From Indolivaga alginatilytica (GTDB lineage Bacteria; Bacteroidota; Bacteroidia; Bacteroidales; Dysgonomonadaceae): DNA of 48,044 nucleotides. The notes beneath the pieces are model-generated. The model saw only the letters and a list, made by a program, of their open reading frames with translations, was not told the DNA's origin and searched no databases. Both the position numbers and the translations under genes were made by a program. Below, in pieces: positions 11,378 to 29,921 of the stretch (positions are counted from its first letter, which is position 1; every line of letters starts with the position of its first letter). Location: contig NZ_QICL01000032.1 in the NCBI RefSeq assembly GCF_003201355.1, forward strand, positions 1-48,044, read 5' to 3'.

Positions 11378-11412
11378 AAAAAAAGACTTACAAATAATTG
11401 TAAGTCTTTTTT
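11378..11412. terminator. Terminator displaced from the tRNA gene
   Basis: The arms GACTTACAA and TTGTAAGTC with a 4-nt loop are flanked by seven A and six T. It abuts the partial tRNA copy at 11413. Reading leftward, it is where the terminator of the tRNA gene lay before the mobile element inserted. Bases 11224-11649 otherwise hold the att repeat and integrase-binding repeats and no gene. Confidence 0.8.
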
Positions 11413-11461
11413 GTGGTCCCACCTGGGCTTGAACCAGGGACCCCCTGATTATGAGTCAGAT
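11413..11461 (-). repeat. Left attachment site: 3' half of a CAU tRNA
   Basis: 49 bp identical to 29847-29895. It covers the tRNA 3' end through the T arm and variable loop to the anticodon stem and stops just before the D-arm half. It is a non-functional tRNA fragment. This is the usual footprint of a tyrosine integrase using a tRNA gene. Confidence 0.93.
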
Positions 11462-11649: not shown

Positions 11650-12912
11650 ATGAGTACCTTTTATTCAAAACAACCGACAGCAACATTATTCTTTGACACT
11701 CGCAGAATTTTAAAGGATGGGCGGTGTCCTGTTAAACTCGTAATTTATTACAATAAGCAAAAGAAAAGATATAATACGGATTTTTCTCTCTCCTCCGAAG
11801 ATTGGGATAGGCTAAATTCTGTTCAATTGAAAGATAAAGTATTGAAGAAGTTGAAAACGGATATGGAGGCTTTAAGGGTTAAAGCAACGAAAACTGTAGA
11901 ATTGTTAGGCGACACGTTTTCTTTTGAAACTTTTGAGATACTGTTCTACGATAAGCAAATAAAACAAAGGGCAGACAAACAGGATGTTTATAGCAGCTTT
12001 GAAGTATACATTGGAAAACTGGAAGATGAAAAACGAATTGGCACAGCCAGATCCTATATTGATGCTTTAAAATCGTTACGCTCCTTTTCGCCTAAACTGG
12101 AATTTAATAATGTAACCGTAGATTTTCTCAATTCTTATGAACGGCATATGCTAGAGAATGGAAGATCGGTTACAACTATTGGAATTTATCTGCGATCATT
12201 AAGAGCTATCATAAACATAGCTAAAGCCGATAAAATAATCAGCGAAGATCAATACCCCTTCGGTATGAAAAGCCATCGCAAATATGAAATTCCTAAAGCA
12301 AACAATATCAAAAAAGCATTAGAAGAATCTGCAATTACCAAAATAGTTAAGTACGAACCTTTAACAGAGGAAGAAGCCAAAGCTCGTGATTTATGGCTTT
12401 TCAGTTTCTATTGTAACGGAATGAATATGGCTGATATATTTGCTTTGAAATATGAAAATATAGATGGTAATTTTATTTATTTTCATCGTAAGAAAACTAT
12501 CCGAACCCGAAAAATACAAGAACCTCTCGAAATATTTATATCCGAACCAGTAGCAGCTATAATTAAACGATGGGGAAATAAAGAACGTTTGAATAAAAAT
12601 CATATATTTGATGTAATAAATAGTACTATGACCCCCGATGATATCTATCATACAACTCATATAACCATCCGTAGTATTAATGCTTATATGAAACGGATAG
12701 CTAAACGTTTGGGCATAGAAGCAAAAGTCACAACGTATGTAGCACGCCATTCGTGGGCGACAACACTTTTACGAAATGGGGTATCAACAGCATATATTTC
12801 AAAAGGATTCGGGCATGCTTCTTTTGCTACCACAGAGCAATATTTGGGAGGTTTTACGCAAGACCAGAAAAAAGATGTTGCAGAAATACTAACTAAACTC
12901 GCAAATGGATGA
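11650..12912 (+). CDS. Tyrosine recombinase / integrase
   Basis: A 420-aa site-specific recombinase of the Bacteroidetes conjugative/mobilizable element type. An N-terminal arm-binding region (FFDTRRILKDGRCPVKLVIYYN) is followed by a core-binding SAM-like domain (about residues 115-215) and a C-terminal catalytic domain. Catalytic features are YVARHSWATTLLRNG (Arg and following His), ISKGFGHAS (His) and the nucleophile Tyr in TTEQYLGGF. At the usual first-Arg position the sequence is FYCNGMNMADI, with Asn in place of Arg. Related Bacteroides integrases such as IntDOT also lack that Arg. It lies 188 bp inside attL and is the likely catalyst of this element's movement. Confidence 0.95.
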   Translation: MSTFYSKQPTATLFFDTRRILKDGRCPVKLVIYYNKQKKRYNTDFSLSSEDWDRLNSVQLKDKVLKKLKTDMEALRVKATKTVELLGDTFSFETFEILFYDKQIKQRADKQDVYSSFEVYIGKLEDEKRIGTARSYIDALKSLRSFSPKLEFNNVTVDFLNSYERHMLENGRSVTTIGIYLRSLRAIINIAKADKIISEDQYPFGMKSHRKYEIPKANNIKKALEESAITKIVKYEPLTEEEAKARDLWLFSFYCNGMNMADIFALKYENIDGNFIYFHRKKTIRTRKIQEPLEIFISEPVAAIIKRWGNKERLNKNHIFDVINSTMTPDDIYHTTHITIRSINAYMKRIAKRLGIEAKVTTYVARHSWATTLLRNGVSTAYISKGFGHASFATTEQYLGGFTQDQKKDVAEILTKLANG

Positions 12913-13735: not shown

Positions 13736-15160
13736 CTGAATTTTAAAGAAATATTATCTCAACCAGAGGGTCGCCGATTAGAGTTTAAGGAACAATTGCC
13801 TAAAACCTCAGATTTAGCAAAAACAATAGTGGCATTTTCAAATGACGCAGGTGGCGAACTTTTCATAGGTATAAAAGATAATCCTCATGAAGTGGTTGGT
13901 TTGTCCGAAGATGATTTGACTTCCATCGAGGAGCAGATAAGTAATATTATTTATACCAAATGTTATCCGACAATAATTCCTGACATAACATTCTTATCCG
14001 AAGGAGACAAGCATCTGATACGAGTAACTATATACAGAGGAAATACCCCTCCTTATTATGTGAAGGATTTAGGGAAATTACACGGTACTTTTATACGTGT
14101 CGGCTCAACCAATCGTCAAGCGGATGAAAATATTATTGGCGAACTTGAAAGACGAAAACGAAATCTGTCTTTTGATAGTGAGATTGTACTTGATAAACCT
14201 TTGAGTGCACTTAAATATGACAGCTTCAAGCAAATATACAAGGATAAGACAAATGAAGATTTAGACCTCCAAGCTCTGAAAAAGCTAGAACTTATAAAAG
14301 ACGTTGAAGGGGTATTATATCCAACTCAGGCACTTATATTATTTTCGGATGATAATCTACGTAATTCTTTATTCCATTTTGCCAAAATCGAATGTGCACG
14401 TTTTAAGGGCACTAAGTCCGAAACGTTTATAGATCAGAAAACTATAAACACAGACATTTCGATGCAAGCCGAAGAAGCCTACAATTTTGTTCTTCGCCAT
14501 ATCAATAAAGGGGCTACAGTTGAAGGCGTTTATACGATATCTCGTTGGGAATATCCGCTTAAAGCCATTAGAGAAGCTATACGAAATGCGGTCGTCCATC
14601 GTGATTATTCATTGACAGGGAAAGATATAAAAGTCGCCATCTATGACGATATGATTGAGATTACAAGCCCCGGACTACTTCCTCCATCTATTGACTATTC
14701 GGCAATGGAAAGCCGTCAGTCTGATGCAAAGAATAAAATAATAGCACCTGTTTTCAAACGTCTGGGCATTATTGACCAGTGGGGAAATGGGTTAAAGATG
14801 ATTGCTGACGAATTGAAAGAATATCCCGATATAGAATTTAAGTGGAGAGAAACAGGATTATCGTTTCAGGTTCAGTTTATAAAAAAGGAGTTTATCAAAC
14901 AGCAAGAGTTACAAAACAAATCATTATATGCGGAAATTCTATTAATACTTACAAACAAGACTTTATCGAGAAAGGAATTATCGGTAGAACTAGGACAGAA
15001 ACAAGTTTCAGGACAGCTCAATAAAATAATCACAAAACTTATTGATGACAAACTTATTGAGCATACTATCCCTAATAACATAAATCATCCATCTCAAAAA
15101 TTCCAAATAACAAAAAGAGGAAACACTTTCTTGAAAATTATAGATCAAGAAAAGAAATAA
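13736..15160 (+). CDS. AlbA_2 domain ATP-binding (RecG-like) transcriptional regulator, non-canonical start
   Basis: A Schlafen AlbA_2-type N-terminal domain (EFKEQLPKTSDLAKTIVAFSN, GGELFIGIKD) is followed by a GHKL-type ATPase-like region (RNAVVHRDYS, DDMIEITSPG, NGLKMIADEL) and a C-terminal winged helix. Such proteins are common putative regulators in mobile elements. The conserved N terminus (LNFKEILSQPEGRRLEFKE) is encoded from about 13736 but has no ATG, GTG or TTG. The first standard start, TTG at 13796, would delete the EFKE core. CTG at 13736 sits where the initiator Met would be expected. The frame is also continuous with the preceding gene through its TAG at 13706-13708. It may use CTG, be read through, or be a dying gene. 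Confidence 0.75.
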   Translation: MNFKEILSQPEGRRLEFKEQLPKTSDLAKTIVAFSNDAGGELFIGIKDNPHEVVGLSEDDLTSIEEQISNIIYTKCYPTIIPDITFLSEGDKHLIRVTIYRGNTPPYYVKDLGKLHGTFIRVGSTNRQADENIIGELERRKRNLSFDSEIVLDKPLSALKYDSFKQIYKDKTNEDLDLQALKKLELIKDVEGVLYPTQALILFSDDNLRNSLFHFAKIECARFKGTKSETFIDQKTINTDISMQAEEAYNFVLRHINKGATVEGVYTISRWEYPLKAIREAIRNAVVHRDYSLTGKDIKVAIYDDMIEITSPGLLPPSIDYSAMESRQSDAKNKIIAPVFKRLGIIDQWGNGLKMIADELKEYPDIEFKWRETGLSFQVQFIKKEFIKQQELQNKSLYAEILLILTNKTLSRKELSVELGQKQVSGQLNKIITKLIDDKLIEHTIPNNINHPSQKFQITKRGNTFLKIIDQEKK

Positions 15161-15812: not shown

Positions 15813-16073
15813 TTTTACAGTATCCGTTTTTCACTCGTCGGGAGGAGTGGTCTCCCCCCTAGCCGTTGGGCGCTCCCCGACCGATGAATTATTGTGGTGT
15901 CCCTTGAAAGGAAATACTCATTGCACTGACCTCAGTTAAAACATCCTGTTCAGTGTGCCGGGTTTCCTGAATCCTGATCCTTTGCCTCTGTCCGAACAGC
16001 AGCTATTCGGCTGTATATTTATCCTTTTCTGCTGATTCGGGCAGCAGCTATCCCCCTTAAAGACAGCTCATGG

Positions 16074-16156
16074 CAAGGTTATGGAAATGTATACATTTCC
16101 CACCTTGCTTTGGCTGTCGCCAAAGAGGAAAATTGCTCCCGATGGTCGGCAATTTT
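16074..16156 (+). other. Three stacked hairpins upstream of mobC: oriT candidate
   Basis: Successive inverted repeats: 16074-16107 (CAAGGT/ACCTTG arms around the palindrome GAAATGTATACATTTC), 16108-16125 (CTTTGGC/GCCAAAG, 4-nt loop) and 16129-16156 (AAAATTGC/GCAATTTT). They sit 55 bp before the mobC start, in a stretch (15813-16210) that is clearly more GC-rich than the surrounding element and has no convincing gene. Mobilizable elements usually carry oriT just upstream of their mob genes. The nick site is not identified. Confidence 0.5.
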
Positions 16157-16210
16157 ATTCGGAGGGTTTATCATGTGAGTATTTTTTTATTAAAAATTGA
16201 AGTAATTATT

Positions 16211-16588
16211 ATGTATCAAAATAAATCTAAATCAAATGAATCTTCGGTCAGAAAAAAGACCAAAAAGAAAGTGCTGAGTGCCCGTTTTCTTGAAATAGAA
16301 TATCAGGCATTAAAGAAAAGAGCCAAAGACGCAGGAGTGACTTTAAGCAAGTTTACACGTGTTGTTTTACTCTCTGGGAAGATTGTTCAGCGAATCAGCA
16401 AAAGCGATGCGGAAACGCTTCGTAAGCTCTCAGGGGAAGCCAATAACCTGAACCAACTGGCACGTGCCGCCAATAAGGACGGCTTTACGAATGTCGCTAA
16501 AGATCTGGTTAGTTTAAAAGCCGTAATCGTAAACATCATAAATCAACTGTCACATGATTGGAAAAGTTATGAAAAGAGCAGCTTTTAA
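16211..16588 (+). CDS. MobC-like mobilization (relaxosome) protein
   Basis: 125 aa. A basic N terminus (SSVRKKTKKKVLSARF) precedes a ribbon-helix-helix-like region and the MobC signature LSGEANNLNQLARAANKDG near residue 80. It would bind oriT and help the relaxase. The start at 16211 (MYQNKSKSN) is preferred because the frame upstream translates the oriT-like hairpins. It overlaps the relaxase gene by 35 bp, as mobC-relaxase pairs often do. Confidence 0.85.
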   Translation: MYQNKSKSNESSVRKKTKKKVLSARFLEIEYQALKKRAKDAGVTLSKFTRVVLLSGKIVQRISKSDAETLRKLSGEANNLNQLARAANKDGFTNVAKDLVSLKAVIVNIINQLSHDWKSYEKSSF

Positions 16589-17588
16589 CGGATGTGTCCG
16601 TTATGTAATGAATAAAGAGGAAGCCAAGCTTATTGCTGTCGAGGGTGTATTGCTGGGTAGCATTGAAAGCATTGTACAGAGTTTCCATACGCAACGGTTG
16701 ATGAAACCGAAAATAAAGCATCCTGTAGGTCATATTGCTTTGAGCTATTCGATAGAGGATAAAGACCGCTTAAGTGATGGAGTTATGGTAACACTGGCTA
16801 AAGAGTATATGGAAGGTATGAATATAAAAGATACCCAGTATATACTAGTCCGTCATTTTGACAATGGGATTCCCCATGTGCATTTAGTCTATAACCGTAT
16901 TGACAATAACGGTAAAGTGATAAGCGATAAAAACGACCGTTACCGAAATGAAGCTGTATGTAAAAAACTAAAGGATAAATACGGCTTAACCTATGGTAAG
17001 GGCAAAGAGAAAGTCAAACAGCACCGATTGCGAGGGAAGGATAAAACCAAGTATCAGTTATATAGTGCTGTTAAAGGAGCTTTGGATAAGTCTGCCAACT
17101 GGAATGACTTTAACAGGCTGTTGAAAGAAAAAGGAATCGCTGTAAATCTCAAATACAAGGGACAGACGAGTGAAGTACAGGGCATATCTTTTACAACAGG
17201 TACTGTCAGCTTCAAAGGTTCTGATCTGGATCGCAGTTTCAGCTATTCCAAAATAGACAAACTCTTACAGGAAAGACAACTGAAACAGAAAGCAGAGCAA
17301 AGGCAAACAAACCAACCAAGTAGCAGACCGAGTAACGAGCAAACCACTCAGCGAACTATCCAACCATCTCAGGAAGCAGATAACAATAATGCTGCTTTAT
17401 TGTCTAAGTCCGATTCATGGGGTACTGGCTTTATAGCACATGGGAATGATGCCGAGGAAGATGAGTTCGCCAGACGGATGAGGTATGAACAGGAGAAAAT
17501 TAATAACAAAACTAATCGTAAAAAGGAAGGAGCAGATAAGTATGAAAACAGAAAATCAGGATTTGAATATGTTTATGGATGGTCTTGA
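16554..17588 (+). CDS. Relaxase / mobilization nuclease
   Basis: A 344-aa relaxase of the MobA/VirD2-like superfamily. The N-terminal catalytic domain has candidate tyrosines such as CVRYVMN near residue 17, and the metal-binding HFDNGIPHVHLVYNRID motif (HxH) near residue 105. This is followed by DRYRNEAVCKKLKDKYGL typical of Bacteroides relaxases. A Gln/Ser/Thr-rich linker (about residues 245-285) precedes a charged tail. It would nick oriT and lead the strand into a recipient cell through a helper conjugation machine. Confidence 0.92.
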   Translation: MIGKVMKRAAFNGCVRYVMNKEEAKLIAVEGVLLGSIESIVQSFHTQRLMKPKIKHPVGHIALSYSIEDKDRLSDGVMVTLAKEYMEGMNIKDTQYILVRHFDNGIPHVHLVYNRIDNNGKVISDKNDRYRNEAVCKKLKDKYGLTYGKGKEKVKQHRLRGKDKTKYQLYSAVKGALDKSANWNDFNRLLKEKGIAVNLKYKGQTSEVQGISFTTGTVSFKGSDLDRSFSYSKIDKLLQERQLKQKAEQRQTNQPSSRPSNEQTTQRTIQPSQEADNNNAALLSKSDSWGTGFIAHGNDAEEDEFARRMRYEQEKINNKTNRKKEGADKYENRKSGFEYVYGWS

Positions 17589-18911: not shown

Positions 18912-19799
18912 ATGAAAAAGTCTATATTACATTTACCGTCAACAAACCAAAGGGATTTGCATTATCTTGTAGAATCTATTTTAAGCCGTGTTAAGCAAAC
19001 CGAAATGATAATTCTATTTGGTAGCTATGCCCGTAACGATTTTGTTGTATATGATGAAAAATATGAGTTTGGCAAAATACAGTTTTATGTAAGCGATTAC
19101 GATATATTGGTTGTTACAAGCGGTATATCTGATGGTATTGCAGGTAAAGCACTGGATAATATAGAGGTTCAGTACTACAATCGGGCAAAAGATCCTGACA
19201 GGCAACCTCCTGTTCAATTTATTAATATTGATATGAAAAAATTGAGTAAGGAATTAACTGAAGGTCGCTATTTCTATACTCAGATAAAACAAGAAGGTGT
19301 AATCTTGTATGATAGTGAGAAGTTTAAGCTTCCTCGTAGACGTAAACTAAACTTTAAAGAGATACAGCAACAGGCACAAGAATATTTCGATGATAAGTTT
19401 ACAAGAGCAAATAGCTTTTTACGTGATGCGAAATATGCTTACTCTTGTGAAGATTGTAAACAATCCTCATTTTATTTACATCAAGCCTGCGAAAACTATT
19501 TTTATACTATACGTTTGGTTTATACTCAGCAGAATAGCAAACAGCATAACTTAACCAAGTTACTAAACTCGGTAAAGAAATATTCTACTGATTTTGTAAA
19601 AGTATTTCCACAGGATACTCCAGAAGAAAAACGGCTATTTGAGCTTATCAAAGCTGCTTATGTAAATGGTCGCTACGATCCTGATTTTGTAGTTACAAAA
19701 GAGGATATTGATGTTCTTGTTCCGAAAGTGGAATTATTGAGAGATATTACTAAATGTATTTGTGAGGAGAGGATTGTGGAGTATGGGGAGATGATTTAG
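18912..19799 (+). CDS. Fused nucleotidyltransferase-HEPN protein
   Basis: 295 aa. Residues 30-70 carry a minimal nucleotidyltransferase motif: LFGSYAR (G37, S38) and the metal-binding DYD (62-64). Residues 150-285 form a HEPN domain (FYLHQACENYFYTIRLVY, then SKQHNLTKLLNSV). Separate MNT and HEPN genes form toxin-antitoxin pairs, in which the MNT protein nucleotidylates and silences the HEPN ribonuclease. Here both are in one chain. The HEPN part has an Arg and a His but not the close R-x4-6-H spacing, so nuclease activity is uncertain. It may be a defence or maintenance gene of the element. Confidence 0.8.
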   Translation: MKKSILHLPSTNQRDLHYLVESILSRVKQTEMIILFGSYARNDFVVYDEKYEFGKIQFYVSDYDILVVTSGISDGIAGKALDNIEVQYYNRAKDPDRQPPVQFINIDMKKLSKELTEGRYFYTQIKQEGVILYDSEKFKLPRRRKLNFKEIQQQAQEYFDDKFTRANSFLRDAKYAYSCEDCKQSSFYLHQACENYFYTIRLVYTQQNSKQHNLTKLLNSVKKYSTDFVKVFPQDTPEEKRLFELIKAAYVNGRYDPDFVVTKEDIDVLVPKVELLRDITKCICEERIVEYGEMI

Positions 19800-19979
19800 T
19801 GCTGGCACTTAATAGTTAATTAGGCAGAGTTTTGATTATCTAGATTCTTACACAATATTTGGGACACTGTTTGTTTAATCAGTTTTTAGCTATATTTGAA
19901 AACAGGATCCAAGTATAAAACCTGAACCCTGAGTTTTTCATTTACACAAATTAGTGGATAGTACCAGTTTCTTCCAAAC

Positions 19980-21701
19980 TCAAACTTTAAATTCTCTAAA
20001 TACATCTTTATTCAACTCTATAAGCTTTCCATTTTCAACTTTGAAAATTCTATCCATCTTCATTATTATCGATAATTTATGAGATAAAACGATTGTCGTT
20101 TTATTCTTCATAAACTCTACAAGCGATTCGTTTATGATTGATTCTAATTCGTTATCTAAAGCACTCGTAGCTTCATCTAAAATTAAGATTTTAGGATTCA
20201 CTAATAAAGCTCGAGTTATGGCAATCCTCTGTCTCTGTCCACCTGAAAGTGTGACACCATTTTCTCCTACTAAAGAATTAAATCCATCTGGTAATTTCTG
20301 AATAAAATCATATGAATTAGATATTTTACTTGCTTTAATAATATCTGAATCAGTAGCATCAGGATTGCCGTATTTTATGTTGTCATTAATTGTCCCGGAG
20401 AATAATTTTATTTCTTGCGATACTACACCAAAGAGTCGCCTATAACTCGATAAAGGTATCTCATTTATATTTAGTCCATCGATAGTAATTTGTCCATTCG
20501 ATAAATGATAAAATCTTAGTAATAATTGCAAAATAGTCGATTTTCCTCCACCGCTTTCCCCTATAATTCCTATTTTATCTCCTCTTCTTATTTCTAAATT
20601 CAAGCCATCCAGTACCACTGTAGATTCTCTGGAAGGATAATTAAAACAAACATCATTAAATTTTAGACTACCGTTAAAATCTGCCAACTCATCACCGATA
20701 GCTACTTGTGTTATATCTTCGGCAGGTTCATTTAATAATATATTGATGCGTTCTGTAGCTCCTATAGATTTCTGTATTGTGCCAAAAGCAATAGATATAG
20801 CTGAATAAGCACTTCCTATAAAAACAGCATTAACAATGAATTCGATTAATTTACCTGTTGTTATGGTAGCAGTTGCGACTAGTTCACTTGCGTACCAAAT
20901 TATTATTATTATCCCTAATAGCAAAACAAATGAAGCAACACCTTCAATTGCAATTTTGGCTATTGATGTAGATATTGATTTTCTTAAAATATTATCAAGT
21001 GCTTTGGAGTATTTTTCTTCTTCTATATGTTCATTATTAAATGTCTTGATTGTTCTCACTAACTGTAAAGATTCTTGAAGAATTACATTGGCAGACGAAT
21101 AATAATTAAGAGTTTCTCTTGACAGTTTTCTCACCTTCATGGCTAGTTTAAGTGAAAAGTATACAGCAGGAGGAAAAACAAGAATAAGTAAAAAAGTTAA
21201 TTTGTAATTGATCGAAAATAAATTTACAAAACAAAATATAATAATAAAAGGCTGATAAATAACCGATGCAATTTGTTCAGAAAATATACTCTTTATCAAT
21301 GCTATATCTGTATTAATTCGACTAAATAGATCCCCGACTAAATTTGTATCATAAAACTTTAGTGGTTGACGAATTAATTTTGAAAATACCTGATTCATAA
21401 TTCTGAAAGTAGTTTTCTCTGCGAAAATAAAAAAAAGATAATTCTTTATCAGTTTAAAGATACTATTCAGAAGAAATGCTAAGAAGATAGCGAAAGATAT
21501 GTATTTTAAATTAGAAAAAATACCCGTCGTGTTTTTTGTCGCTCCATCTATCAATTGACCAAACAGATAAGGCAAAGAAACCTGTGTTAAGCTTGTAAGT
21601 AATATAAATACGACTCCTAAAATAAAATAACGTTTAAAAGGAGAATAAGCATCTTTAAGAGCAAAAATGTTACTATTTTTAATTGTTTTGAATAAACTCA
21701 T
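19980..21701 (-). CDS. ABC exporter (fused membrane and ATPase domains)
   Basis: A 573-aa half-transporter. Six transmembrane helices span residues 25-310. The nucleotide-binding domain has Walker A (GESGGGKST), Q-loop (VVSQEI), signature (LSGGQRQRIAITRA), Walker B (ILILDEATSALD) and the H-loop His (VLSHKLS). It lacks an N-terminal C39 peptidase domain, so leader removal would need another protease. The M48 gene directly upstream, overlapping by 23 bp, is the obvious candidate. Being last in the operon that begins with the small precursor-like ORF, it probably exports the mature peptide. A lipid or drug exporter cannot be excluded from sequence alone. Confidence 0.88.
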   Translation of the reverse strand: MSLFKTIKNSNIFALKDAYSPFKRYFILGVVFILLTSLTQVSLPYLFGQLIDGATKNTTGIFSNLKYISFAIFLAFLLNSIFKLIKNYLFFIFAEKTTFRIMNQVFSKLIRQPLKFYDTNLVGDLFSRINTDIALIKSIFSEQIASVIYQPFIIIFCFVNLFSINYKLTFLLILVFPPAVYFSLKLAMKVRKLSRETLNYYSSANVILQESLQLVRTIKTFNNEHIEEEKYSKALDNILRKSISTSIAKIAIEGVASFVLLLGIIIIIWYASELVATATITTGKLIEFIVNAVFIGSAYSAISIAFGTIQKSIGATERINILLNEPAEDITQVAIGDELADFNGSLKFNDVCFNYPSRESTVVLDGLNLEIRRGDKIGIIGESGGGKSTILQLLLRFYHLSNGQITIDGLNINEIPLSSYRRLFGVVSQEIKLFSGTINDNIKYGNPDATDSDIIKASKISNSYDFIQKLPDGFNSLVGENGVTLSGGQRQRIAITRALLVNPKILILDEATSALDNELESIINESLVEFMKNKTTIVLSHKLSIIMKMDRIFKVENGKLIELNKDVFREFKV

Positions 21702-22743
21702 GATAAGATTTGATTTTTTTTATTCTGTATTTATTAAAAGGATGGGGAGAATTAATATAATACCCTAATTTAGTTTGAGAAATTGGATCATTTACTAATT
21801 CTATTTTTCTTAAAGCATTTATAAGGTCTGTACTCGAAAATGTTAAGGAAGAATATTTATCAGCTAAATACTCTTGTTGTCTTAAAATTGTATTGTATAA
21901 AAACTTGAAAAATAGCATAAGAAAATCAATAGACAACACAATAAAGACAAATCCTAAAAACAGATTAATACTATTTAATATACAAAATTTGACAACCAGG
22001 TACATAAATAAAAGCAAGAGTAAATTACTCAGCATTTTTATTAAGTAAATCATGCTATGTTTACCTATTTCATGCCCTATTTCATGCCCTATAATTGCTA
22101 TTATTTCTTCTGTATTTAATGTGTTTATTGCTTTACTAGTAACTATTATGTTGTTTTTACCATTTTTCCCCGCTAAAAGGTGTGCATTTATTAACTCATT
22201 GTCATAGTATGAAATTACCCCTTCCATCAACATGTGAGGTGATAAATGATTTTCTATTTGACTTTTTAAAGGTTCTGGTAGAGGATATATATTATTATAT
22301 TTCTTTAATTCATTTTTTCTGTTTTTTTTAATTTTCGAATAAACATCTACTATAATATACAGGATTGCGAATAGCAATAAGGTATACTCTGCACTTATTT
22401 TTTCTATTAAAAACAGACTAAATGATAGCCCTATTGATTTAAGTGTTATATCTAATAATAATTTCGTTAAACGAATTTTATTGGTTTGGCTTCGATTATT
22501 AATATTTATAATTAAAGGAATTATACTTAAAATCGTAAAGAACAAAAAGCAGATAACGAAGCCATAGACGTAATTAACTTCTCTATTGAGAAAAGGGATG
22601 AGTAATACTATATTTAAATATATATACTTAGCTATATCTGTTCGAAATTGAAGGTCTTTATTTGAGTTATATGAGCATATGTTTCTTGAAATAGTTAAAT
22701 AAAGAATAGATATTATAAATGCAGCGATAATTAAACTATCCAT
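21679..22743 (-). CDS. Integral-membrane M48-family metallopeptidase
   Basis: 354 aa. Four hydrophobic segments occupy the first 140 residues. The zinc motif HEIGH (220-224) is embedded in IGHEIGHEIGKHS, two further membrane helices follow, and the probable third ligand lies in QQEYLADKYS. This is the HtpX/Ste24-like arrangement. It sits between a putative maturation protein (4-bp gap) and the ABC exporter (23-bp overlap), which suggests it cleaves the precursor leader or degrades failed product. At DNA level the doubled HEIG comes from a short tandem duplication near 22072-22095. Confidence 0.85.
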   Translation of the reverse strand: MDSLIIAAFIISILYLTISRNICSYNSNKDLQFRTDIAKYIYLNIVLLIPFLNREVNYVYGFVICFLFFTILSIIPLIININNRSQTNKIRLTKLLLDITLKSIGLSFSLFLIEKISAEYTLLLFAILYIIVDVYSKIKKNRKNELKKYNNIYPLPEPLKSQIENHLSPHMLMEGVISYYDNELINAHLLAGKNGKNNIIVTSKAINTLNTEEIIAIIGHEIGHEIGKHSMIYLIKMLSNLLLLLFMYLVVKFCILNSINLFLGFVFIVLSIDFLMLFFKFLYNTILRQQEYLADKYSSLTFSSTDLINALRKIELVNDPISQTKLGYYINSPHPFNKYRIKKIKSYHEFIQNN

Positions 22744-22747
22744 AATA

Positions 22748-23542
22748 TTAAAAAAAAGTGTTTTTGATCTTATTGTTTATTCTTAGGGATTCATCCTGAA
22801 ACTCAAGGATAGTCAAGATACAATCAAAACTTATATTTAATATGGCAGTTATTTCATCTTTTGAAAACTGATCTTTAAGATAGTTTCCAAAATATCCATT
22901 TATATTTTGTTGAAGGCCTATATAGTTTGCACATGATACAACCGTATTATTAGAGTTTTGTCCAAGATATATTAATGATCGAAATACTAAATTTCCTAAT
23001 AGTAGGTTATACTCTTTTTTGTACAACTGAAGCATAAGTGCCTCTAATAGATTCGTATTATACTTTTCTGAAAATGTAAATTCTTTATTTTTACCAAAAT
23101 CTGTTCCTATGTTGATTAAGGATGTGTAGGTTTCGATATTTGATTTTAGTAAATCGTAATTCTTAAAACTTGAAATTAGATCAATGTTCTTCACCTTGTA
23201 AGATAAAAAGCAATAAGGGAAATCATACCTTTCTTCGCCAATATCACTTTTTAAATATAGTAACCATTCTTTTATAAAAAGACTGGTCGGGCTATTATTG
23301 TTATTAAGCATCATATATAATAATATATGAAACTTTGGTATTTGATTCAACTCTTCAAAAACAAGATTATCTACAATTTTTTCGGTCTCGGCAAGAAAGT
23401 CCTCGCCAATTATTTGGTCGGAATAGCTGAATGATTTTACTGAATTATATATTATAAGTCTATCTAAAATACTCAATTGATATTCGGTTATAATGGTCGA
23501 CAACCATTTGTGATAATTATTTAATATTTTGTCCGTCTCCAT
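22748..23542 (-). CDS. Putative peptide maturation protein B, paralogue of its neighbour
   Basis: 264 aa, helical, with no transmembrane segment. The C-terminal half aligns by eye with the upstream 311-aa protein: TSLINIGTDFGKNKEF here versus THSLFYLSDFGERPIF there, then a helical stretch and YIGLQQNINGYFGN versus TLFKSQRKDGSFPAP. The latter resembles the Q-x-x-x-G-x-(F/W) turn of alpha/alpha-toroid proteins. I suspect the DUF6895 family, but that is memory-based and tentative. It lacks the His of the THS motif, so one paralogue may be catalytic and the other structural. It overlaps the upstream gene by 26 bp. Confidence 0.7.
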   Translation of the reverse strand: METDKILNNYHKWLSTIITEYQLSILDRLIIYNSVKSFSYSDQIIGEDFLAETEKIVDNLVFEELNQIPKFHILLYMMLNNNNSPTSLFIKEWLLYLKSDIGEERYDFPYCFLSYKVKNIDLISSFKNYDLLKSNIETYTSLINIGTDFGKNKEFTFSEKYNTNLLEALMLQLYKKEYNLLLGNLVFRSLIYLGQNSNNTVVSCANYIGLQQNINGYFGNYLKDQFSKDEITAILNISFDCILTILEFQDESLRINNKIKNTFF

Positions 23543-24452
23543 TTTTTGATTTTATTAGAAATACTGTTGCTATCAGAGCAACCAATGTAACATGGTAATT
23601 TTGATTTACATAATCCTTTTGATTTACTCTATGGTTTATACCATGCTGTAGCCTTTTACTTCTTTTTGGTGCAGGAAAAGAACCATCTTTCCTTTGGCTT
23701 TTAAATAAGGTTTTACTGGCAATGTCACAAACTTCATTATTTATATTTAAATTGCATAAGTTTATAATATACTCTCCCAGTAGATCCATATCATTTGCTA
23801 ATATATTCTTTAGGGTAAGTGTTAGTAGGCTATGCTCAATTTCATCATTATTATCTGTAAATATAGGCCGCTCTCCAAAATCACTTAAGTAAAATAAAGA
23901 ATGAGTCAACGCATATTCTTCACTAATACTAAAATTTATCAAATCGAATTTTGAAGCTAATATGGATGTTTTCGATATATTTTGCATTTTAGCATAGTCT
24001 TTTCCATCTTTATTAAGATAGGACGATGCCAAATATAAATTATATTCTAAGTCCATCTTTCTAAAAGGAATTATCTCAGGCGTTATATCCCGAGCTGTTT
24101 TATAAGTTCTCTTTATAATAGATTCTAATTTTCGATTATTCTTATAGTTAAGGTAAAATATAATAGAACTTCCATTTATTCTAAAACAGTGGGGATCTAT
24201 TTGTATTTGCTCATAATATCGAGGATTCAATAAGATTGGTTCTGTAAATTGGCTAATTAATTCAACAATCTCAAAATTCTCTATTGTAAAGTGCCTCCTA
24301 TTGCGATATGCTAAAAATAAGAACAAATGCAACTCATTAAACATCTTGTTAGTATTGGGGTCATTAATAGCACCATTATCTAACGGACTAAAATACTTTA
24401 AACTTTCATAAATCCATTTTAATGCCAATCGCTGACTTTCAATTATATTCAT
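23517..24452 (-). CDS. Putative peptide maturation protein A (alpha/alpha-toroid-like)
   Basis: 311 aa from the ATG at 24452; an upstream ATG at 24467 would add MIIIT. It is helical with repeated hydrophobic helices. Notable motifs are EYALTHSLFYLSDFGERP near residue 190, the turn SQRKDGSFPAP near residue 265, and NYHVTLVALIATVFL near the C terminus. These recall prenyltransferase/cyclase toroid repeats, and the THxLFYLSDFG stretch recalls DUF6895 proteins (tentative). It follows the precursor-like gene on the same strand, after a strong hairpin. It is the best candidate for a modification enzyme, since no lanthipeptide synthetase, radical SAM, YcaO or ATP-grasp gene is in the cluster. Confidence 0.7.
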   Translation of the reverse strand: MNIIESQRLALKWIYESLKYFSPLDNGAINDPNTNKMFNELHLFLFLAYRNRRHFTIENFEIVELISQFTEPILLNPRYYEQIQIDPHCFRINGSSIIFYLNYKNNRKLESIIKRTYKTARDITPEIIPFRKMDLEYNLYLASSYLNKDGKDYAKMQNISKTSILASKFDLINFSISEEYALTHSLFYLSDFGERPIFTDNNDEIEHSLLTLTLKNILANDMDLLGEYIINLCNLNINNEVCDIASKTLFKSQRKDGSFPAPKRSKRLQHGINHRVNQKDYVNQNYHVTLVALIATVFLIKSKNGDGQNIK

Positions 24453-24479
24453 AGTTATAATAATCATATAAGATTAATA

Positions 24480-24515
24480 AACAATAAGTGGAAAATACCT
24501 TTTCCACTTATTGTT
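24480..24515 (-). terminator. Strong hairpin between precursor and maturation genes
   Basis: A 16-bp perfect stem (ACAATAAGTGGAAAA and its complement, plus an outer A-T pair) with the loop TACC. On the minus strand it is followed by a weak T-rich tract. Partial termination or 3' stabilisation here would give more precursor transcript than enzyme transcript, as is common in peptide clusters. Confidence 0.75.
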
Positions 24516-24594
24516 GTTAAATTTAAGAATGCTAACTTTTGAATATTAGAAGTTAAAGCTAAAATATTCTCTAGATGAAACACTCTTAATTTGC

Positions 24595-24780
24595 TTACCA
24601 CCAAACAAGAAGACCATGATCTTTGCTGATGAATGCTCCAATATCATCACAATCAGAGCAAGCTGTTTCAGACGTGAAGTTTTGTACTTCCTCTGTGAGG
24701 GGTGAAAATACTAATTTAGAATCTCCTTGGGTAAATTTTGCAAAGTTCTGCACGCGATTTGAAACCATAATTTTTTTCAT
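24595..24780 (-). CDS. Precursor-like small peptide of a natural-product locus
   Basis: 61 aa, starting MKKIMVSNRVQNF. An N-terminal region of about 38 residues with charged and hydrophobic positions (NFAKFTQGDSKLVFSPLTEEV) resembles a recognition leader. The C-terminal tail begins near ETACSDCDD, contains a CxxC pair and ends GLLVWW. There is no double-glycine or lipoprotein signal. It heads an operon with two paralogous unknown proteins, a membrane protease and an ABC exporter, which is the usual gene order for a ribosomally made peptide. The mature product, cleavage site and modification are unknown. A divergent PadR operon lies 133 bp away. Confidence 0.75.
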   Translation of the reverse strand: MKKIMVSNRVQNFAKFTQGDSKLVFSPLTEEVQNFTSETACSDCDDIGAFISKDHGLLVWW

Positions 24781-24863
24781 TTTGTAAGTGTTATTAATTT
24801 AAGACATTCAAATAAATACATTTTAAATTAAAAAAACAGCATACTGTTAATTTTAATTTGATA

Positions 24864-24898
24864 AAATACATCGTATTACAATGTATTTGCTATATTTG
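24864..24898 (+). promoter_or_regulatory. padR promoter with candidate PadR operator
   Basis: An inverted repeat AAATACAT (24864-24871), 9-bp spacer, ATGTATTT (24881-24888) directly abuts a Bacteroidetes -7 box TATATTTG at 24891-24898. A third half-site AAATACAT lies at 24814-24821, nearer the divergent precursor gene. PadR proteins bind ATGT/ACAT-type inverted repeats and usually repress their own promoter. The placement would let one regulator control both operons. Confidence 0.6.
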
Positions 24899-24913
24899 TA
24901 AAAAAATAAGATT

Positions 24914-25240
24914 ATGGAAAAAGATTATATCTCTAATTGGATTGTCCAATTCAAAAAATGCGTTCTACCCTTAATCATTTTAGATTTACTTATAGGGAAA
25001 GATTGTTATGGCTACTTGTTAATTGTGATGATTAAAGATCACACAGGATTTGATATATCTGAAGGAACAATTTATCCAATACTGAACAGACTCCATACAG
25101 AAGGTTTGATCGAATACAAATGGGTAGAACAAAAAACAGGAATCCCTCGAAAATATTATTCCCTGACAGCAGAAGGACAGAATACTCTGGACTTATTAAA
25201 GCAACATTGGAATAAAATAAACGCAACTTTCAAAATATAA
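24914..25240 (+). CDS. PadR-family transcriptional regulator
   Basis: A 108-aa winged-helix protein with typical PadR sequence: ILDLLIGKDCYGYLLIVMIKD, then ISEGTIYPILNRLHTEGLIEYKW and RKYYSLTAEGQ. PadR regulators commonly respond to small molecules and control efflux or antimicrobial genes. It is first in a plus-strand operon with a HAAS-like membrane protein (17-bp gap), a classic pairing, and it is divergent from the precursor gene. It likely represses one or both units and may sense the peptide or envelope state through its partner. Confidence 0.93.
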   Translation: MEKDYISNWIVQFKKCVLPLIILDLLIGKDCYGYLLIVMIKDHTGFDISEGTIYPILNRLHTEGLIEYKWVEQKTGIPRKYYSLTAEGQNTLDLLKQHWNKINATFKI

Positions 25241-25257
25241 AATTAATAAAGAAGATT

Positions 25258-25851
25258 ATGAACAAAAGCAATTTTACATCAGAGCAATCCTACATCAATT
25301 ATGCATCATATATTGAAAAAGTAAAAAGAATAATCTCAGTTTTACCTGATGAAGATGCATTGGAATTAATGAAAGAACTGGATTCACATATCTTTGAATC
25401 TTTGCATGCAGATACTTCAATAATAATTTCGGAAGAAGAGAGAATCAAGACTGTTTTGGATAAGCTGGGTAGCCCCGAGTCGTACTTAGCACCCTTAATT
25501 GCAGAGAAAAGATTAACTCATGCCATCAAAAAGTATAATTTGGTAGAAATTCTAAAAGCAATTTTTGGGATATTTAAGACTGGAGGACAATACTTTTTAC
25601 TTTCAATCCTTTATTTATTCACTTTAGGATTTGGAATAGTTATTATTGCAAAGATCTTCTATCCTCAAAAAACCGGTTTCTTTGTTGAAGAAGGGCAGAT
25701 AATCGGACTAGGTTTTTTCTCGAAGATTAATGCGCAAGCCACTGATTTATTAGGTTATTGGATAATCCCACTAATGATTATTCTAATTATAATCTTTTAT
25801 CTGATAACCACATATTTGTTAAGAAAAATAGTATTAAGAAAGAGAAAATGA
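25258..25851 (+). CDS. HAAS/DUF1700-like membrane protein
   Basis: 197 aa. A cytoplasmic helical domain (residues 1-95: YIEKVKRIISVLPDEDALELMKELDSHI and LDKLGSPESYL) matches the HAAS/DUF1700 pattern found next to PadR genes. Two or more transmembrane helices follow (YFLLSILYLFTLGFGIVIIA and IIPLMIILIIIFYLITTY) and the C terminus is very basic. It probably works with PadR in signalling or immunity. Its stop overlaps the next gene's ATG (ATGA). Confidence 0.8.
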   Translation: MNKSNFTSEQSYINYASYIEKVKRIISVLPDEDALELMKELDSHIFESLHADTSIIISEEERIKTVLDKLGSPESYLAPLIAEKRLTHAIKKYNLVEILKAIFGIFKTGGQYFLLSILYLFTLGFGIVIIAKIFYPQKTGFFVEEGQIIGLGFFSKINAQATDLLGYWIIPLMIILIIIFYLITTYLLRKIVLRKRK

Positions 25852-28442
25852 ATTACCGGATATTCATTATACTACTACTATTAATAAACCCTTTTAAAAC
25901 AAGTGTTTTTTCTCAGAATATAACAATAAGCGGTATTATTCTCGATGCTTATTCTATAGGATGCCAAGATGCCAATATTATTATTTCTGACAAAAATCAA
26001 ACAATTATAGCTTATACCTTTAGCCAAGCAAATGGGTTTTATAGTCTTTCATTCCCTAATTCATCTAATTTAGAGTTAAGTGTCACTCATATTGGTTTTA
26101 AACGGGTAGTGGTTGATATTTCTGATTTTATCATAAAAGATGGTATTATAAATAAAGATTTTTCCTTAGAAGAAAGTCTTCAACTACCCGAAATTATCAT
26201 AAAACCTGAAAATATTGAACCTGATACTGTCAGTTTTGACCTAAACAAATATAAATTAAAAGAAGATGATAATCTTGAAGCCATTCTTAAAAAAAACCCA
26301 AATTTTAATGTAGGTGATGATGGATCAATATTATATAAAGGGAAGAGTATTGACAGAATATTAGTAAATGGTAAAGACTTTTTCACCTATCAAAACAGTA
26401 TTGCTCTGAGTAAAATAGAAAACAGAATGATTTCTCAGCTACAAGTTGTAAATAATTATCGGAATTCATTCTCCTTAGATGATGATGAACCTGAGGAAAC
26501 GGTATTGAATATTAATTCAAAAGAAGAATTTAAAAATGTAATTACCGGGTCGTTAATTGCTGGCTATGGATTTAAAGATAAGTTCGACTTGCAAGGCTCT
26601 GCATTAAAAATTTCGTCCTTATATAATCTCTTCTTAATCAATAGTAATAATAATATTGGAAGACCAACAATCGAGCTAAGAGAAATCCAAAATTTATTTA
26701 GTAACAAACAACCTTTTTCTACATTCCAAATAGAATCTATAAATGAATTATTCCGCATGGAAGACCGGAAAAAGGATATGATTTCAACAACCAATCTGAC
26801 AATAAGAAAGCAAACAGACAAAATAAAAATAAATGGACTTTTTTACTACTTTAAGAATAATAGAGAGAATGATATCTTCTCTAAAAATACAGATGAAAAT
26901 GGCGAAAGTCTTTTGATAAAAGATCAAGATATTTCTTATGAATCGAATTCATTTTTTTCTGATATCACGATTGATTATCTCCTAAAGAAGAATCAGATTC
27001 TAAGTTATGCTTCCAATTTGATCATTTTAAAGCCAACAACATCTTCTCATGTTGTAAACACAATAAAGGATACTCAATTAATACCGACTACTATTGAAAC
27101 TTATTCAAAGGATATCAATGACAGCTATAATTTATTCAACAAGATAATTTATTCAAATAAAATAAACTCACACCTTTTCCTATTTCTTGGTGCTGATTCT
27201 TACTATGAAAAAACAAAACTTAAAAATTCAATAACTGAAGTCAACGACTCTTCAGATATATATATTCAAAGTTTTAAATATGAAAAAAAATATATAAACA
27301 CAAATAATTCAATTCAATACAAAAAAAATAATGCTGTAAATATCTATTTAGAAGGAATTGCCATGTTATCCAATGAATCTCTTTTAGATCAGATACCTCA
27401 TATTGATAATCAAAGAAATTCCTCTAAACTTAATTTAAATATTATTATATCAGGTCAAAAGGTGATGAATAAGATCAATTACAAATTGATTTTAGGTGCT
27501 GAAAAGCAATCTGTCAGCTTCGGTAAATTAAAAAATGACATCTATTTTATACCGTACAACTTAAATTTCAATTATGAAAACAGATTGAATAGATTGAATA
27601 TTTCATTATATTCTTCACAGAACTTAAACCCTGTTGAAAGTGGAATAGAGTATCTCAATAATAATAACTTGATATTGGGCAATGAGAAATATCCCGTTAA
27701 ATCTTATGTAAAACAAAGAGAAGAGATAGGTTATGTTTATAATAATTTTTTTATGGGTAAAAGATATGGTATCTCAATTAGCCATCAAAGATATAAGGAT
27801 CAATTAACTGAGGTCTTTCTCGATATAGACCAATATGGTATTCGCAAATTTATCTTATCAGCTATACCCAAGACCGAAGAATATAAAATATCAGGAGAAG
27901 CTTCCAGGCTTATATTTAAATATGGAAGATATCCTATCAAAACAGATTTAGGACTTAGCTACAGATGGAACAGTGCTCCAATTTATTTTGCTGAAACATT
28001 ATATAATATTACGAATAATCAAGTGAATGGGTTCATGAAATTTGAAAGCATAACTGACAAGATCATAAATTTTGAAACTTCGTTGGATCTCACATCATCG
28101 ATAAATAGGGTGGGATCTGATAGTTTCAATGCGAAATATTTCAAAAGCCGCTTTACTATAAAACTAGATTATGGAAAAATCAGGTCTGAGGTCACATACA
28201 TTCTCTTTAATGATTATATAATTGGTAAAACATATAACAGGCAAAACATTAATTTGAATATATCTTATAAATTAAAAAAAGCAACATTTTTAATTGAAGG
28301 AGAAAATGTAGATCAATTCTTCTCTATCTTTAATAACAAAGCATATAACACAAAATTTTCCATTCTGAACGGAATAAATCAGACGACGGTTTCAAATCAA
28401 GCTATAAACTATTTAATCTTTAAAATAAAATATAATTATTAA
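25848..28442 (+). CDS. TonB-receptor-like outer membrane beta-barrel protein
   Basis: 864 aa starting at the ATG that overlaps the preceding stop. A further-upstream start at 25758 would sit inside the previous gene. It has a signal peptide (MNYRIFIILLLLINPFKTSVFS), then a carboxypeptidase-regulatory-like domain (ITISGIILDAYSIGCQDANI...NGFYSLSF), a plug-like region (LKKNPNFNVGDDGSILYKGKSID) and a long barrel region, as in the Bacteroidetes outer membrane beta-barrel group. It could export, take up or give immunity to the peptide. It is followed by a GLPGLI gene, a frequent Bacteroidetes pairing. Confidence 0.88.
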   Translation: MNYRIFIILLLLINPFKTSVFSQNITISGIILDAYSIGCQDANIIISDKNQTIIAYTFSQANGFYSLSFPNSSNLELSVTHIGFKRVVVDISDFIIKDGIINKDFSLEESLQLPEIIIKPENIEPDTVSFDLNKYKLKEDDNLEAILKKNPNFNVGDDGSILYKGKSIDRILVNGKDFFTYQNSIALSKIENRMISQLQVVNNYRNSFSLDDDEPEETVLNINSKEEFKNVITGSLIAGYGFKDKFDLQGSALKISSLYNLFLINSNNNIGRPTIELREIQNLFSNKQPFSTFQIESINELFRMEDRKKDMISTTNLTIRKQTDKIKINGLFYYFKNNRENDIFSKNTDENGESLLIKDQDISYESNSFFSDITIDYLLKKNQILSYASNLIILKPTTSSHVVNTIKDTQLIPTTIETYSKDINDSYNLFNKIIYSNKINSHLFLFLGADSYYEKTKLKNSITEVNDSSDIYIQSFKYEKKYINTNNSIQYKKNNAVNIYLEGIAMLSNESLLDQIPHIDNQRNSSKLNLNIIISGQKVMNKINYKLILGAEKQSVSFGKLKNDIYFIPYNLNFNYENRLNRLNISLYSSQNLNPVESGIEYLNNNNLILGNEKYPVKSYVKQREEIGYVYNNFFMGKRYGISISHQRYKDQLTEVFLDIDQYGIRKFILSAIPKTEEYKISGEASRLIFKYGRYPIKTDLGLSYRWNSAPIYFAETLYNITNNQVNGFMKFESITDKIINFETSLDLTSSINRVGSDSFNAKYFKSRFTIKLDYGKIRSEVTYILFNDYIIGKTYNRQNINLNISYKLKKATFLIEGENVDQFFSIFNNKAYNTKFSILNGINQTTVSNQAINYLIFKIKYNY

Positions 28443-28457
28443 TTAACATCAAACAAA

Positions 28458-29192
28458 ATGAAAACAATTATTTATTCTTATCTGATTCTTCTTGTATTTT
28501 TATTAGGTGGCGAAGCTAGTGCCCAGTCAGAGAAAAAAGATATAATGAAAGTATCTTATATTTCAAATTCATTGTCTCCTAATATTTTATCTCTTTTAAA
28601 AGAGCAGATTCCGTCACCAAATGAGTATCAAGATGCTGTTAATAGAATTTTAAAGTATAAATTCTTCTATTCATTATATATTAATACTAAAACACATGAA
28701 TCTGTTTATAAGATAGATTCTATACATGTGGAGAAAAAAGTAATGCCTATTGGCAACATTGAGTTTGTTTATACGGATCATTCAGGTATAATGACTGGCA
28801 AAGAAACCATCATGAATTCTACGCAGTTATTTAGTGGAGATATAAAAGCAATGGAGTGGATTATTACAGACCAGACAAAAGAAATTAATGGATATATATG
28901 TAAAAATGCAACAATTAAAAACCATACGGATATATCTGTATGGTTTACACCTGAAATCCCCATTAATAGAGGTCCTGGTTATTTTCAAGGCTTATTGGGC
29001 TTAGTTTTGGAAGGAAGTGATTTTTTTGGAAATGTGACAATTTCAGCTTTTGAATATCTTGATGATAACAACTTTTTTAGCGAATTAGTTGCGAAATATA
29101 GTGAAGAATCTAAGGGAAAAGCAATAACTATAAAAGAAGTTTTAGCTTCAAAAGCAAATATATTTAATACCATAAGAAACAAATCAAAATAA
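28458..29192 (+). CDS. GLPGLI-family protein
   Basis: A 244-aa secreted or periplasmic protein with a signal peptide (MKTIIYSYLILLVFLLGGEASA). The family signature appears as INRGPGYFQGLLGLVLE near residue 170, a GLPGLI variant with Leu in place of Pro. Middle regions (KEINGYICKNATI and DISVWFTPEIP) are also typical. Function is unknown for the family. It is often encoded beside an outer membrane barrel, as here, 15 bp downstream. It is the last gene of the padR operon, followed by a terminator. Confidence 0.85.
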   Translation: MKTIIYSYLILLVFLLGGEASAQSEKKDIMKVSYISNSLSPNILSLLKEQIPSPNEYQDAVNRILKYKFFYSLYINTKTHESVYKIDSIHVEKKVMPIGNIEFVYTDHSGIMTGKETIMNSTQLFSGDIKAMEWIITDQTKEINGYICKNATIKNHTDISVWFTPEIPINRGPGYFQGLLGLVLEGSDFFGNVTISAFEYLDDNNFFSELVAKYSEESKGKAITIKEVLASKANIFNTIRNKSK

Positions 29193-29217
29193 GAATATTG
29201 ACTTTTTTCAACAAATG

Positions 29218-29255
29218 AAAACACCTGTCATTTACTATATGATGCAGGTGTTTTT
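29218..29255 (+). terminator. Terminator of the padR operon
   Basis: The stem AAAACACCTG/CAGGTGTTTT is followed by TTTT. Bases 29256-29778, up to the integrase-arm repeats, are AT-rich and I see no gene that I can support. A few short open frames there lack coding character. Confidence 0.85.
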
Positions 29256-29778
29256 ACTTATATTCTTCTTTGAATGAATTTAGATGGTTTACCAATATCT
29301 TTTTTCGTTTTCTTATCTTTTATTTTTAAAATTTCAATTTTTGTAACTATTTTATCTTGAATATTCAACTGGAGGGAGCGGAATATTGAAATTCATTTCA
29401 ATAGTTTTTGATAAATTATATTGAATACTACCAAAGCTGAGGTGCTTTAATTGTTACCTTGTTTTCAATATACATCAGCGTTAAATTACGAAACTTGTAA
29501 ATTTTTAGAGGAATGAGGAGATCTGTGCAGTATTCTGTTGTATGGCGTGGCTCTGCCTTGTTCGCTTCTCGGGTATACTAGGACATCTAATCCGAGCAGG
29601 TGGGTATACAGTTGCTTTCTTGTTATAGTAACATATTGTGCGAACACGTGGGACATGAAATAAAAACGCTACTTATATATATAACGTTCTTATTTAAAAA
29701 TAGTATCCAGTGTCGGATATACTGGAGCACTACCTTTTTTGAAACAGTATTTTTTTGTACTTTATCTTCAAAACACCT

Positions 29779-29802
29779 GTGGTGCAAATTTATGGTGCAA
29801 AT
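29779..29802 (+). repeat. Integrase-arm-like repeats, right end
   Basis: Two copies of TGGTGCAAAT in direct order match 11584-11607 with a single-base difference in spacing. They lie 45 bp inside the right att site. Confidence 0.65.
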
Positions 29803-29834
29803 AAAAAAACAGTTAAGCGAAATGTGCTTAACTG
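29803..29834 (-). terminator. Replacement terminator for the tRNA, supplied by the element
   Basis: On the minus strand, CAGTTAAGC, a 7-nt loop, GCTTAACTG and then seven T. It lies 13 bp after the tRNA 3' end and replaces the original terminator now at 11378-11412. Confidence 0.85.
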
Positions 29835-29846
29835 CTTGATTTTTAA

Positions 29847-29895
29847 GTGGTCCCACCTGGGCTTGAACCAGGGACCCCCTGATTATGAGTCAGAT
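29847..29895 (-). repeat. Right attachment site within the intact tRNA
   Basis: 49 bp identical to 11413-11461, overlapping the tRNA 3' half. This is the junction of mobile element and chromosome. Confidence 0.93.
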
Positions 29896-29921
29896 GCTCT
29901 AACCAACTGAGCTATAGGACC
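29848..29921 (-). tRNA. tRNA with CAU anticodon (Met or Ile2)
   Basis: The cloverleaf is complete on the minus strand. The acceptor GGTCCTA pairs with TGGGACC (with a G-U). The D arm is AGCTCAGTTGGTTAGAGC, the anticodon loop CTCATAA gives CAU, the T arm is CCTGGTTCAAGCCCAGG, and the discriminator is A. CCA is not encoded. Elongator Met and lysidine-modified Ile2 tRNAs both carry CAU, and I cannot separate them by eye. The 3' half is part of attR, so the mobile element has rebuilt a functional gene. Confidence 0.93.

Follow-up and report, generated by a model that had tools for sequence, protein, structure and literature searches.

A candidate DUF6895 peptide cluster carried on an integrative mobilizable element of Indolivaga alginatilytica

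The window analysed here is the 48,044-nucleotide (nt) stretch at positions 1 to 48,044 of contig NZ_QICL01000032.1 of Indolivaga alginatilytica (Dysgonomonadaceae). It contains an 18.4-kb integrated unit, an integrative mobilizable element, whose cargo at 19980-29192 is arranged as two divergent operons. The minus-strand operon runs from a small open reading frame (ORF) of 61 amino acids (aa), past a hairpin, into four genes which either overlap or stand 4 nt apart. The gene order and operon structure agree with an earlier reading of this DNA made from the letters alone (the sequence-only reading), and every gene was found where that reading had placed it. The features of this operon, in the direction of transcription, are as follows.

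24595..24780, minus strand: 61-aa candidate precursor peptide with the C-terminus LLVWW, picked out by its position at the operon head and its charge split
24480..24515, minus strand: hairpin in the gap from the 61-aa ORF to the DUF6895 gene, with a 16-bp stem and a loop of 4 nt (folding against shuffles)
23517..24467, minus strand: DUF6895 protein, 316 aa, a proposed peptide-modifying (epimerase-like) enzyme (PF21836, invariant residues)
22748..23542, minus strand: partner protein, 264 aa, a probable diverged DUF6895 relative with a Q-x(4)-G-x-F-like motif (profile searches)
21679..22743, minus strand: membrane M48 metallopeptidase, 354 aa, the proposed leader peptidase (PF01435, 70 bits)
19980..21701, minus strand: MsbA-like ATP-binding cassette (ABC) exporter, 573 aa, without a C39 peptidase domain (ABC_membrane and ABC_tran)

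The 316-aa protein is a member of DUF6895. It matches PF21836 over almost the whole profile (residues 14-301 on positions 3-288 of 289; E 6e-30, 105 bits against a cut-off of 23.8), and an alignment of 15 DUF6895 proteins, the window protein being one of them, leaves M1, E45, Y185, T188, H189, G198, D228, E232, G262 and H292 invariant (window numbering). A DUF6895 protein has reportedly been named a lasso-peptide epimerase, in work by Shi et al. in ACS Catal 2026 which is known to us by its title. Twelve of the 15 proteins also match DUF6902 (PF21843) weakly, the best at E 5.6e-5, and the two families may therefore be related.

The 264-aa gene overlaps the DUF6895 gene by 26 nt. Pairwise BLASTP finds nothing between the two proteins, and comparing their profiles gives a weak result (E 0.03, probability 1.7%). 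A partner-family profile assembled from seven proteins, none of them from the window, was searched against the window's ORFs of at least 60 aa; its top hits are nevertheless the DUF6895 protein at 8.6e-5 and the 264-aa protein at 7e-4, with the next hit at 0.3; two smaller partner profiles retrieve the 264-aa protein more weakly, at E 0.023 and 0.079. Because an independent profile retrieves both, a distant relationship of the two to one another and to the partner family is most likely; the sequence-only reading had supposed them related. That reading had also left the chemistry of both proteins blank, which needs revision now that one of them is placed in a family with an epimerase reported by title. 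Both halves form a single 577-aa protein in a Streptomyces plasmid (L005), and a Kitasatospora relative (L014) of this fusion is 51% identical. In L005, L014 and a further plasmid of these genera, L016, the fusion or the partner half has large type I polyketide synthase genes a few kb away.

Fourteen DUF6895 loci outside the window were read (L002, L004, L005, L006, L011-L015 and L021-L025; L016 was not counted), and in 13 of them a small ORF on the same strand heads the gene set, the exception, L025, being a contig-end fragment. The sequence-only reading had asked whether homologues of its two proteins would mostly occur without an adjacent small ORF; they do not. Six of the small ORFs are annotated in public records (L004, L005, L011, L012, L014 and L015). 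All were chosen by eye, and for L002, L005, L013 and L021 an ATG inside a longer listed frame was taken; the candidate in L006 is 125 aa long, and the DUF6895 frame of L024 is interrupted by an internal stop. In L023 the small ORF is followed by two ABC genes and then by DUF6895, and the operon ends with an exporter 28% identical to the window's ABC protein.

Many of these small ORFs are homologous across Bacillota and Actinomycetota, as judged by family profile tests on 12 of the 13 (L006 was omitted). A Bacillota profile of L021, L022 and L023 retrieves the small ORFs of Kitasatospora L014 (5.4e-5) and Streptomyces L005 (0.0055); a profile of L005 and L014 retrieves L022 (0.0086), L011 (0.012) and L021 (0.015); and one of L004, L005, L014 and L011 retrieves L002 (1.2e-6) and L022 (0.021). 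Of the 1083 decoy ORFs drawn from these loci and the window, not one scored E 0.5 or better in the three tests, and a separate five-member profile gave one decoy at E 0.39. Altogether, six of the 12 are retrieved at E≤0.02 by profiles that do not contain them (L002, L005, L011, L014, L021 and L022); L004 (0.17), L023 and L024 are not, and L012, L013 and L015 form a separate subgroup whose members match one another only. A core motif was derived from a hand alignment of eight of the 13 candidates, with L006, L011, L012, L013 and L015 omitted as too different; core-like stretches typical of the small ORFs are GGVLAWSGYVLVW, NTFAWSGWVLVV, GGIAIWSGWALVW and YVLAWERYVLVV. In two Streptomyces plasmids (L012:5037-8892 and L013:4644-8724) a tandem pair of DUF6895 genes is followed by a beta-lactamase-family serine hydrolase (PF00144, E 1e-51 and 2.6e-54), which might act on D-residues.

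Within the window's own phylum DUF6895 is very rare. It was found in one of 395 genomes sampled from the phylum, one of 227 from the class and one of 101 from the family, each time the window's own, and in two of 393 from the order, namely the window's own and a genome in which an open frame of 168 aa lies close to the end of a contig; these samples overlap. It is present in five of 200 genomes of the class of Alkalicoccus, the Alkalicoccus genome included. Further cases, in Pseudalkalibacillus, Streptomyces, Kitasatospora and Cupriavidus, came from plasmid searches, and the family is absent from the phages and viral contigs searched.

In the window, the position at the operon head is taken by the 61-aa ORF, which in our reading is most likely the small precursor. 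Its N-terminal half is basic (+3) and its C-terminal half acidic (-5). The hairpin behind it is a perfect 16-bp stem (z -6.4; none of 200 shuffles folds equally well) and resembles a terminator or processing site. Among those gaps between small ORF and DUF6895 gene at other loci which are long enough to fold, L004 has a clear hairpin (z -3.8), L002, L015, L023 and L024 give z near -2 to -2.6, and L005, L014, L021 and L022 show nothing beyond shuffles.

The enzyme genes are followed by those of the proposed processing and export machinery. The M48 protein has an HExxH motif at residue 220 and five transmembrane-like stretches; relatives occur in 128 of the 198 genomes searched in the order, the best-scoring one other than the window's own having E 7e-14 with 30% identity over the catalytic half, and none was found in the plasmids searched. 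The ABC gene overlaps the M48 gene by 23 nt. Its product has ABC_membrane from residue 26 and then ABC_tran, and a test for the N-terminal C39 domain of peptidase-containing bacteriocin exporters gave no match. The remaining features of the cargo and the element are these.

24914..25240, plus strand: PadR-family regulator (PF03551, E 4e-20)
25258..25851, plus strand: HAAS-domain membrane protein, partner of PadR (PF22564, 28.9 bits, cut-off 27)
25848..28442, plus strand: outer-membrane barrel-like protein, 864 aa, with a CarboxypepD_reg-like N-terminus (below the Pfam cut-off)
28458..29192, plus strand: GLPGLI family protein (TIGR01200, 90 bits, cut-off 50)
11407..11461, strand not assigned: left repeat, a copy of part of the tRNA-Met gene (repeat comparison)
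29841..29895, strand not assigned: right repeat, overlapping tRNA-Met at 29847-29921 (repeat and tRNA search)
11650..12912, plus strand: tyrosine integrase of the element (PF00589)
16070..17588, plus strand: MobC and relaxase of the MobA/VirD2 type (PF05713, PF03432)

Pfam and NCBIfam confirmed the identities first proposed for the M48, ABC (without C39), padR, HAAS and GLPGLI genes. PadR and HAAS recur together at L021 and L022, where they precede an ABC ATPase and an ABC-2 permease; in the window the pair is divergent from the peptide operon. A candidate PadR operator at 24864-24888, AAATACAT-N9-ATGTATTT, was rejected as within chance, a repeat with 8-bp arms arising in 992 of 5000 mononucleotide shuffles. 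The ATG of the barrel gene overlaps the HAAS stop codon (the listed 894-aa ORF begins earlier, at a TTG). The description of its product as a TonB-receptor-like barrel is borne out as far as the sub-cut-off CarboxypepD_reg match and a single hydrophobic N-terminal stretch go, but there is no Pfam match to a plug or TonB_dep_Rec domain at E≤1.

The unit is an integrative mobilizable element because an integrase, MobC and a relaxase sit between 55-nt direct repeats (96%) at tRNA-Met; everything expected of such an element, that is an integrase, a relaxase and flanking direct repeats at a tRNA gene, is present, and the mobilizable element of the sequence-only reading is therefore confirmed. The cargo has a G+C content of about 26-30%, the remainder of the window 33-41%, and the DNA at 19500-29900 has no near match in the plasmid collection. 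Beside the cargo, at 18912-19799, the element encodes a nucleotidyltransferase-like domain (below cut-off) fused to a HEPN domain (46 bits), and at 13796-15160 a Schlafen AlbA_2/RecG-C-like protein. A PADLOC defence scan of eight proteins (the ABC, barrel and GLPGLI proteins were left out) matched only PadR, weakly, to CARF/Csa3 models (E 0.001 and 0.004).

Taken together, we read the cargo as a cluster for a non-lasso ribosomally synthesised and post-translationally modified peptide (RiPP), modified by the DUF6895 protein and its relative and carried on an integrative mobilizable element, and we give this reading a probability of about 0.5. Its support comes from the small ORFs which head 13 of 14 other DUF6895 loci, many of them homologous across phyla; among the scanned cargo proteins there is no match of the lasso, lanthipeptide, radical-SAM, YcaO or ATP-grasp kind. 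In the model that we propose, the 61-aa precursor would be transcribed at the operon head, with the hairpin behind its gene yielding more precursor than enzyme. The DUF6895 protein and its diverged relative would then work jointly as a peptide-modifying enzyme, a cooperation suggested by their occurrence as a single polypeptide in two actinobacterial plasmids. The chemistry we favour is epimerization at an alpha-carbon by acid/base catalysis, in which the invariant H189 and H292 would act alongside two acids that are likewise invariant, D228 and E232. Leader removal would fall to the membrane M48 peptidase and export of the product to the ABC protein, while PadR and HAAS would control the divergent promoters. 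At the cell envelope, the barrel and GLPGLI proteins may take part in passage of the product or in self-protection.

Known systems offer partial parallels. The YydFG epipeptide system combines a small precursor, an epimerase, ABC genes and a membrane protease, and the epimerase, YydG, is a radical SAM enzyme; the cargo, as read here, would be a similar gene set, but its proteins gave no radical SAM match. The DUF6895 lasso epimerase known by title belongs to the same Pfam family as the 316-aa protein, but here a DUF6895 relative is the neighbour and the genome lacks a match to the lasso protease. In the lasso epimerase MslH, an enzyme of calcineurin fold, two His/Asp pairs epimerize a C-terminal Trp (PMC10406935). 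The likeness lies in the proposed two-histidine acid/base epimerization and in the precursor of MS-271, MslA, which ends in Trp as does the 61-aa ORF (PMC10406935). Two invariant histidines with acids would fit a two-base reaction of this kind, and the window peptide ends Trp-Trp. The difference is that MslH has a calcineurin-like fold, whereas DUF6895 is another family, whose model, of too low a quality to be trusted, is helical.

Several observations weigh against our interpretation. The epimerase link of DUF6895 comes from a paper title. The window's DUF6895 protein sits on the longest branch of the family tree without a firm place, and its function may therefore have drifted. Two AlphaFold2 models, built from two-row alignments (window and L002), are poor, with pLDDT values of 39.5 and 36.4. 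In plasmid L016 a partner half is annotated on its own, with no DUF6895. Elsewhere, the DUF6895 neighbourhoods read show no M48, barrel or GLPGLI gene, as judged from ORF lists and annotations with the flanking genes partly domain-scanned. The 61-aa ORF is recovered by none of seven small-ORF family profiles; its match to the core profile is equalled by 593 of its 2000 shuffled versions; a search of 100 other genomes of its family gave nothing better than E 0.053; and its weak plasmid matches (E 0.9 and 2) fall in records which the DUF6895 queries missed. An ATG ORF of 61 codons on its strand of the 446-nt gap also arises in 145 of 5000 dinucleotide shuffles, which makes it mildly unusual. The sequence-only reading had named a second ground for refutation, a small ORF with no conserved counterpart in related loci, and this one applies by half: many of the small ORFs elsewhere are homologous across phyla, but the window ORF agrees with them by position only and lacks a recognisable sequence counterpart. 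In outline, the peptide natural-product locus of that reading is borne out and finds backing in other phyla; the 61-aa ORF as precursor and the roles of the M48, barrel and GLPGLI proteins are proposals.

This lack of similarity, together with the shuffling result, is what one would expect if the cluster were real but the 61-aa ORF a chance or short regulatory frame, the enzymes acting on some other peptide or protein. We consider this unlikely, given that the ORF shares its position with small ORFs elsewhere, that a strong hairpin lies 3' of it and that the gap holds no competing same-strand ATG ORF of 40 aa or more. Rather unlikely, too, is a RiPP-type locus in which DUF6895 and its partner catalyse a different reaction, for example a cyclization, the prenylation of Trp or some other modification. 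Both the Q-x(4)-G-x-F motif of the partner and the QxxDGxxP...YHTTLV segment of DUF6895 resemble the repeats of alpha/alpha-toroid cyclases and, presumably, those of protein prenyltransferases, and the invariant D228, E232 and H292 could hold a metal. The top matches of the partner profile in the PDB are squalene-hopene cyclases, through one QW-like stretch (whole-sequence E ~0.005; no stretch passes alone), which hints that the partner may have an alpha/alpha toroid fold. Set against this are the epimerase of the paper title, the absence of any Pfam prenyltransferase or terpene-cyclase match among 15 DUF6895 proteins (E≤1) and 13 partner or partner-like proteins (E≤0.1), and the DUF6895 profile itself, which has no credible match among PDB sequences, just potassium-channel stretches at E 0.36 and 0.47. 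The same title, in linking DUF6895 to lasso peptides, raises the prospect of an orphan lasso cluster with its protease and cyclase elsewhere in the genome, which we regard as very improbable. The genome of the window, 99.99% complete according to the tool, has no match to the B2 leader protease family PF13471, nor have seven of nine other genomes or plasmid records searched; the matches in the other two are on contigs other than that of DUF6895. No lasso gene was noticed in the DUF6895 neighbourhoods read. The asparagine-synthetase-like lasso cyclase has no match among the scanned cargo proteins, a genome-wide search for it not having been made.

That the barrel and GLPGLI proteins serve the peptide product is unproven, and there is a considerable chance, if a little short of even, that they are ordinary envelope cargo sharing the PadR operon by accident. 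The pair was not seen at other DUF6895 loci, although most of those are Gram-positive, and it exists without DUF6895: barrel relatives are widespread in the order, with 78 of 149 genomes having one (the window's own included), and GLPGLI genes adjoin at least two of 13 fetched barrel relatives (L083 and L087; a motif scan gave one of 13 and a profile check of ten neighbours added L087, the neighbours being partly scanned). The barrel start overlaps HAAS and the gap to GLPGLI is just 15 nt, however, and the row of four GLPGLI genes at L083 includes a RiPP leader domain. There, at L083:2381-3361 on the minus strand (genome G230, contig C5), a TIGR04149 leader (29.2 bits against a cut-off of 25) runs on in frame, with no stop, into a GLPGLI protein, and an outer-membrane barrel gene lies next to the row; the 61-aa ORF itself has no TIGR04149 match. 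As a link between envelope modules of this kind and peptides, this is an anecdote. Literature searches found neither GLPGLI together with a biosynthetic gene cluster nor the combination of a D-amino acid RiPP with M48.

Returning to a non-lasso RiPP cluster as the preferred reading, we suggest, tentatively and as somewhat less than an even bet, that it represents a new RiPP class. In such a class a two-part DUF6895 enzyme, separate here and in Bacillota and fused in Streptomyces and Kitasatospora, would introduce D-residues, or make some comparable change, in a short core (AWSGYVLVW, for example), and the window would hold its Gram-negative form, rebuilt to include an M48 leader protease together with an outer-membrane module and travelling on a mobilizable element. 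The locus provides a compact gene set, open to experiment, for an enzyme family on which almost nothing has been published, and the comparison with other loci indicates a group of small-peptide genes common to different phyla and lying outside lasso clusters. If the enzymes do epimerize or otherwise modify these peptides, the cluster would be a compact mobile route to protease-resistant peptides, and DUF6895 would offer a new handle for genome mining.

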